A stretch of DNA of 43,914 nt, taken from an uncultured Desulfobulbaceae bacterium (lineage in GTDB: Bacteria; Desulfobacterota; Desulfobulbia; Desulfobulbales; CALZHT01). The notes beneath the pieces were generated by a model. The model searched no databases. It worked only from the letters and a program-made list of their open reading frames with translations, and had not been told where the DNA came from. Shown in pieces: positions 30,075 to 31,815 of this stretch. Where the stretch lies: contig CALZHT010000016.1 of NCBI GenBank assembly GCA_945787445.1, positions 1-43,914 of the forward strand, written 5' to 3'. Every line of letters starts with the position of its first letter. Position 1 is the first letter of the stretch. Both the position numbers and the translations under genes were made by a program.

Positions 30075-31061
30075 TCAGTCATTATTAAGGGACGATAGTG
30101 ACAGGTAATGCCGCAATTGGTCAAACGAGCTGCCATAGGTAAGAATTTGCTCTTCCTTGCCGCGGATTTCATATTTCTTGGTGACGAAATACTTGTCGGC
30201 TTCACACAGAGTATTTGCGGCATCTTCTCCCATTATGAGTTCCAGTCCTGCTTTCTTTGTGAGACTTTCCAGGCGGAAGGCCACATTCACAACATTTCCG
30301 ATCACCGTGAAATCCCGCTGGCCATCCACCCCCATATTGCCCACCACCGCTTCGCCCGTATTCAAAGCTGCCCTGATCTTAAGCTCCCATGGGATTTCAA
30401 GCAGTTTTTTACCAAGTTTCTCTGTAAAGTCGCTTACTTCAAGAACCGTTTGCAGGGCAAGCGTGGTACTTTCCTCAGGGGTCAATGGGCTGGTCCACAT
30501 GGCAAGAACAGCATCTCCGATAAATTTATCAACAATACCTTTGTTCTTGCGGATTATTGTATTTAGCTGGTCTGTCCAAGATCTGAGAAGCTTGGAGATG
30601 AGTTGATCTCCGATAATTTCAGAGAGCCTTGTAAATTCGACAATATCGCAGACGAGGATCGTCACCCTTTCCTTTTGGACAAAGGCAACGGTTCTGTCAT
30701 TAAAGTCCTCAGGTTCAGAGGGAGACTGGTCTTTAAGAATATTTTTTTGGACGAAAAGAAGTTCTGTTTTGCCTATTCGGATAATGTCGCCTGTTCGAAG
30801 AGCCGTAGGAGTAAAAATGCGTGTATTGTTGACAAAGGTGCCATTGGAACTCCCCAAATCGATAATATTGTGGACACCGTTTTCTTCGACTTGAATCATG
30901 GCATGCTGCCGCGAAACCCAGGAATAAGGCAGATTAATATTACAATTCGGCGCGCGTCCGAGGCGGAAAGTCGGTTGACCTTCAAGTTTCCAGGTTTGGA
31001 CAACACCTTCTTGGTTGTCAATCAACTTGAGGGAAGCCGGCGGTTCTGATGGTATATCCAT
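30075..31061 (-). CDS. FHA domain-class III adenylate cyclase
   Basis: The 328-residue cytoplasmic protein has an FHA domain at about 25-100 (FRLGRAPNCNI, SRQHAMIQ, DLGSSNGTFVN), which binds phosphothreonine peptides. A class III nucleotide cyclase domain from about 125 has the two metal-binding aspartates (CDIVEFT, IGDAVLAMW), the substrate lysine in VDKFIGD, and GNVVNVAFRLE with the catalytic Asn and Arg. These residues indicate an active adenylate cyclase. The FHA domain suggests control by a Ser/Thr kinase, though none lies nearby. The SelW-like selenoprotein gene ends 31 bases upstream on the same strand. Confidence 0.9.
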   Translation of the reverse strand: MDIPSEPPASLKLIDNQEGVVQTWKLEGQPTFRLGRAPNCNINLPYSWVSRQHAMIQVEENGVHNIIDLGSSNGTFVNNTRIFTPTALRTGDIIRIGKTELLFVQKNILKDQSPSEPEDFNDRTVAFVQKERVTILVCDIVEFTRLSEIIGDQLISKLLRSWTDQLNTIIRKNKGIVDKFIGDAVLAMWTSPLTPEESTTLALQTVLEVSDFTEKLGKKLLEIPWELKIRAALNTGEAVVGNMGVDGQRDFTVIGNVVNVAFRLESLTKKAGLELIMGEDAANTLCEADKYFVTKKYEIRGKEEQILTYGSSFDQLRHYLSLSSLNND

Positions 31062-31092
31062 AAATTATATTTTTACATTCCGAGGAGTGAAT

Positions 31093-31314
31093 TTACATGG
31101 ATTTAAGCATGGAAATGATCTTATGCGTTTCTGGAAATTTCCCCACCTTTTTTTTTGAGAATACTTCCTTTCCATCGACACTAATTTCAAAAACTCCTCC
31201 AGAACCGGCAATGTATTCAACATCGACATGTAAATTATCTTGTAAATCTTGTCCCAGACCGGAAGCTCTTGGGTAATAGTTTCATTGTGCACAATAAACT
31301 ATCGTAACTTTCAT
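31093..31314 (-). CDS. SelW/Rdx-family selenoprotein with UGA-encoded selenocysteine
   Basis: From ATG 31314, GGAG-preceded, the frame reads MKVTIVYCAQ, UGA (31282-31284), then NYYPRASGLGQDL, DVEYIAGSGGVFEISVDGK and VFSKKKVGKFPETHKII, ending at TAA: 73 residues. With UGA as selenocysteine this is a full-length SelW/Rdx thioredoxin-like protein with the redox motif CAQU in the correct place. The GSGGVFE and FPE segments are hallmarks of the family. Just after the UGA, CCC-A-AGA pairs with TCT-GGG around a GCTTCCGG loop, consistent with a bacterial SECIS. Members are thought to act in thiol redox chemistry. Standard translation would stop at codon 11. Confidence 0.88.
31253..31284 (-). promoter_or_regulatory. 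Candidate bacterial SECIS element
   Basis: Starting 8 bases after the UGA, CCC (31273-31271), a bulged A, and AGA pair with TCT and GGG (31258-31253) around the 8-base loop GCTTCCGG. The loop begins with G about 15 bases after the UGA. A guanine at the loop start and a short stem at about this distance are known features of bacterial SECIS elements, which recruit SelB. Confidence 0.65.
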
Positions 31315-31815
31315 ATCCAATTCTCCAAAGTTATCAAAAGATGGTCTTCAATTGCTTAGCTATTCGATCAAGAACACAATCTGCAAATAGTATAGTACAC
31401 GATAATCAACCTTTAAAAAATTCTTTCGCGTACATGAGAGCGGCTTTTATTTTCAATAAAATTGGACAAGTTGGATAACTGCATAAAAAAAATTATAAAA
31501 TAATATTATTTTTATAAAATATATTCCATTCTCATTGGTCATAAAAACCATTCATAATGAGTGAAACAAACAACAGGCAATAAATATAATATCATATAAT
31601 TTCCTATACTTATTTGAAAAAAACATGTATATTTATTGTGAAACAACTGCTATATTTTAATAGTAGATCTTGTTTATTGATTATCTTGATTGTGCACTGA
31701 TCGAAGGTTTTTACCAAGTAGTTTTTGAAAGCTGGCATCATAATATGGTAAAGTAGTAACAATATGGTTCAGTTAACTAAATGTTTTGACCGATATTCTT
31801 CACCAGGAGCGCGCC
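31315..31815. other. AT-rich divergent intergenic region
   Basis: About 500 bases between the selenoprotein gene and the PilZ gene. It is strongly AT-rich, with no gene found, and should hold both divergent promoters. I cannot define either. Confidence 0.4.

Follow-up and report, generated by a model that had tools for sequence, protein, structure and literature searches.

A SelW-type redox protein gene with an internal UGA almost certainly read as selenocysteine in an uncultured Desulfobulbaceae bacterium

The window, that is, the whole 43,914-nucleotide stretch of DNA analysed here, carries a real gene for a small SelW-type redox protein, and the internal UGA of this gene almost certainly encodes selenocysteine (Table 1). 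Translation with the UGA read as Sec yields MKVTIVYCAQ-U-NYYPRASGLGQDLQDNLHVDVEYIAGSGGVFEISVDGKEVFSKKKVGKFPETHKIISMLKSM, corresponding to 10 residues, U, and 62 further residues, followed by a terminal UAA at 31095-31093. Ordinary gene finders would miss this gene, the UGA being taken as a stop. The preliminary description had placed a SelW/Rdx protein of exactly this composition on the minus strand from 31314, and every coordinate was confirmed. We hold with great confidence that the product is a SelW-like (Rdx, SelT/W/H) thiol-redox protein with a CxxU motif decoded by SelB and a SECIS element.

Table 1. Positions of the SelW-like gene and associated features in the window
Feature	Position	Strand	Basis
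selW-like (Rdx family) selenoprotein gene, stop codon included, 73 aa, CxxU (C8, U11)	31093..31314	-	translation, Pfam Rdx, TIGR02174, homologues
In-frame UGA, codon 11, almost certainly read as selenocysteine	31282..31284	-	same-codon TGA in 88/94 aligned homologues
Shine-Dalgarno-like GGAG, 8 nt upstream of AUG	31323..31326	-	sequence
SECIS-type hairpin core UUCCG-GUC-UGGGA	31252..31264	-	register kept, with covariation, across 86 distinct Sec homologues
FHA domain / guanylate cyclase-type protein, selW neighbour	30075..31061	-	sequence, synteny

The family identity of the protein was established by profile searches. The translation with U at position 11 matched the Rdx family of Pfam over its full length (E = 2.9e-18, residues 2-70, 66.3 bits against a cut-off of 22.6) and scored 64 bits with TIGR02174 (SelT/SelW/SelH, NCBIfam), for which the curated cut-off is 34.2. 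The Campylobacter model NF041051 (SelTWH_Campy) was narrowly missed, at 85.8 versus 88 bits. The redox motif, C8-A-Q-U11, lies close to the N terminus, and positions 8 and 11 were invariant in an alignment of 33 sequences. The proposal that this CxxU stands where the family has CxxC or CxxU was borne out, as the Cys relatives carry CxxC at the same place.

We searched 96 genomes, comprising the organism's own, two from the same family, and the remainder from the same order, and found SelW-like homologues in 80 of them, its own included (79 of the 95 relatives). Among these 80 genomes, every homologue covering the aligned codon has TGA there. Over all loci compared, with distant named genomes included, the codon is TGA in 88, TGC in 5, and TGT in 1 (n = 94); the six Cys codons all belong to distant Proteobacteria (Microbulbifer, Pantoea, and Rhodobacteraceae/Phaeobacter), and two further secondary matches are fragments that stop short of the codon. 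The nearest relatives found are 57-61% identical to the window's protein. Downstream of the UGA, most differences from relatives affect the third position of codons, the pattern of a translated frame. Searches of viral contigs returned no relative, and those of plasmids only matches below 60% identity, mostly in rhizobia.

Gene order provided a further criterion of homology. The arrangement of selW with a PilZ protein, the FHA-cyclase, and YggS is common to the host genome and the same-family genome G002, and YggS and TatD lie around selW in both the host genome and the same-family genome G001. Based on this shared gene order, the three selW genes are orthologues.

We weighed the possibility that a nonsense mutation or sequencing error has interrupted what was a Cys-type Rdx gene. 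In favour of this, the window's SECIS hairpin is weaker than most, but the UGA is conserved in dozens of genera and the remaining Rdx frame is intact and conserved. Together, the same-codon TGA in every covering same-order homologue, the orthology, and the concentration of differences at third positions exclude a broken gene for practical purposes, and we regard it as very improbable. The preliminary description had named frame disruption at this codon in close relatives as an argument against selenocysteine; the relatives have UGA there, and the distant ones Cys.

Two side observations arose from these comparisons. In one relative (G062:C31; L090, minus strand), the SelW-like gene contains two TGA codons, one in place of Cys8 and the other at the Sec position (MKIVIKY-TGA-VQ-TGA-NFLPRASS...); this gene could encode a UxxU form, or its Cys codon could have undergone a point mutation. 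Separately, the protein next to selW in the window combines an FHA domain with a class III adenylate/guanylate cyclase domain in a single fusion, and its gene starts 31 nt past the selW stop codon. It likewise adjoins selW in G002 (L023:1795-2778), an observation of synteny only that implies no role in Sec decoding.

The whole bacterial Sec apparatus was detected in the host genome (4.46 Mb, 227 contigs, about 96% complete), in agreement with the earlier suggestion that the organism makes selenocysteine and that selA, selB, selD, and a selC tRNA should be sought. The tRNA-Sec gene selC scored 71.5 bits, above the gathering score of 47, and ARAGORN likewise called a tRNA-SeC with anticodon tca. 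Scores were 638 versus 268 bits for selA, 356 versus 242 bits for a full-length selB, and 340 versus 125 bits for selD. Judged by gene content, the organism very probably decodes selenocysteine. The host's own selD (L019, G000:C85:3605-4534, minus strand) contains an in-frame TGA as well, and behind this codon lies a strong hairpin (GUCCGAC-GGCUCU-GUCGGAC, loop start after 20 nt), making selD a second selenoprotein gene of this genome.

Across the 96 genomes, selA is present in 89. In the near-complete relatives G040 and G048, we found neither selA above cut-off (TIGR00474, PF03841) nor SepSecS, and both have selB, selC, and a UGA-containing Rdx (SelW) gene. In G048, a run of 5000 N (G048:C1:1947501-1952500; L144:7502-12501) lies beside the homologue of the gene neighbouring selA in G013, and the apparent loss of selA is therefore most likely a masking artefact. 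The idea of Sec decoding without SelA in G048 was dropped for this reason.

Nothing specific favours a reading of the UGA as an amino acid other than Sec, by a reassigned code or near-cognate readthrough. We consider it highly implausible, given the complete Sec apparatus in the genome, the use of UGA as the terminal stop in 9 of the 25 long ORFs of the window, and the fact that only Cys codons replace the UGA in homologues. Equally implausible is a chance origin of the Rdx frame, with the minus-strand frame at 31065-31292 as the true gene: this competing ORF, named in the preliminary description, does exist and is open (75 aa, GTG start), but it overlaps almost wholly with a frame that matches Pfam at 2.9e-18 and is conserved in 80 genomes.

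The selenocysteine reading is further supported by a hairpin downstream of the UGA. A hairpin of six core pairs, free of gaps, occurs at a fixed distance in 86 distinct Sec sequences, its loop beginning 21-22 nt after the UGA with G at the first two loop positions. Each core pair is formed in 90-98% of these sequences (95% of cells overall), and sliding the 3' arm by 1-6 nt reduced the pairing to 17-57%. Cys homologues are 43% paired in the SECIS register and have no matching hairpin. In one pair, both partners are third-codon positions; this pair was found as T-A 55, C-G 17, G-C 2, C-A 9, and T-G 3 times, a covariation with a Fisher p of 9e-9, uncorrected for relatedness. Distant Sec homologues retain the hairpin with quite different letters, such as CGCUC-CGUGU-GAGCG in Rhodospirillales. 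In loop, stem length, and spacing, these hairpins agree with the bSECIS model as published (PMC13188914).

The window's own copy is weaker. Its arms UUCCG (31264-31260) and UGGGA (31256-31252) enclose GUC (31259-31257) and form five pairs, including two G-U, with C-C replacing the sixth C-G pair of the consensus. The apical loop is GGUCU, or GUC with the G-U pair counted, on a stem of 4-5 bp, and starts 21-22 nt past the UGA. The preliminary description had noted a short stem with a G-starting loop just after the UGA; it is indeed present, but is weak by itself, at about -2 kcal/mol in the conserved register, and when the 55 nt are folded freely, another structure has the lowest energy (-7.7 kcal/mol, z = -0.5). 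The published minimum free energy criterion for bSECIS elements is -7.5 kcal/mol or lower (PMC13188914); the conserved-register stem alone would miss it, and the fold at -7.7 kcal/mol is the different structure. An Rfam scan of the region returned chance-level matches only and no match to a SECIS model.

Within the family, the window stem ranks 76th of 87, below the median strength. Some relatives from the same order have stems equally weak or weaker, and thus the weakness is no argument for lost function. The putative SECIS element owes its credibility less to its own folding energy than to its conserved position and the covariation across the 86 sequences, and a SECIS predictor working on one sequence at a time might overlook or misplace it. 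That a hairpin with a broken sixth pair still directs efficient Sec insertion seems somewhat unlikely. If it does, SelB of this lineage would recognise mainly the loop and a stem of 4-5 bp, and the bSECIS would be looser than the published model.

In the proposed decoding, translation would start at 31314. SelA would make Sec-tRNA-Sec from Ser-tRNA-Sec and selenophosphate supplied by SelD, and SelB on the hairpin just downstream would deliver it at UGA codon 11. The ribosome would insert selenocysteine and continue to the UAA at 31095. The predicted product is a thioredoxin-like redox protein in which C8-x-x-U11 would cycle between selenol/thiol and selenenylsulfide. We infer that its physiological role is most likely thiol-based redox or oxidative-stress handling.

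The window gene encodes a further SelW-like protein of a well-known type that is common in related bacteria. Such proteins are listed for Desulfotalea psychrophila and Geobacter sulfurreducens (PMC1794560), and the prokaryotic forms are filed under PF10262 with CxxU as high-confidence predictions (PMC13188914). With 427 sequences, they were the most abundant prokaryotic selenoprotein family in the Global Ocean Sampling data (PMC2398784). The window protein shares with them the family, the CxxU with Sec at its second position, and the occurrence in selenoprotein-rich bacteria. Nothing essential differs; the window contributes a new sequence with a shorter SECIS stem.

Solved relatives include Cys-type bacterial Rdx proteins (PDB 2fa8, 2p0g, 2oka, 2obk, 2ojl, and 3dex), which share the Rdx domain and active-site position. 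These have CxxC instead of CxxU in two alignments and longer chains than the window protein, and the Cys-type genes compared lack a SECIS-register hairpin, unlike the window gene. Human C17orf37 (2ljk) is also among the solved relatives, by sequence match. Mammalian selenoprotein W (PDB 2npb) was recognised as a family member by its profile match (E = 7.7e-7) and is described with CxxU, as in the window protein, in PMC8508763. Eukaryotic SECIS elements lie in the 3' UTR (PMC13188914), whereas the window hairpin lies in the coding region.

Nothing known about the SelW-like family is altered by this gene. It offers a clean example of a gene overlooked by standard annotation, which treats its UGA as a stop, and the 86-sequence comparison documents that the SelW coding sequence and the SECIS hairpin have been kept together.
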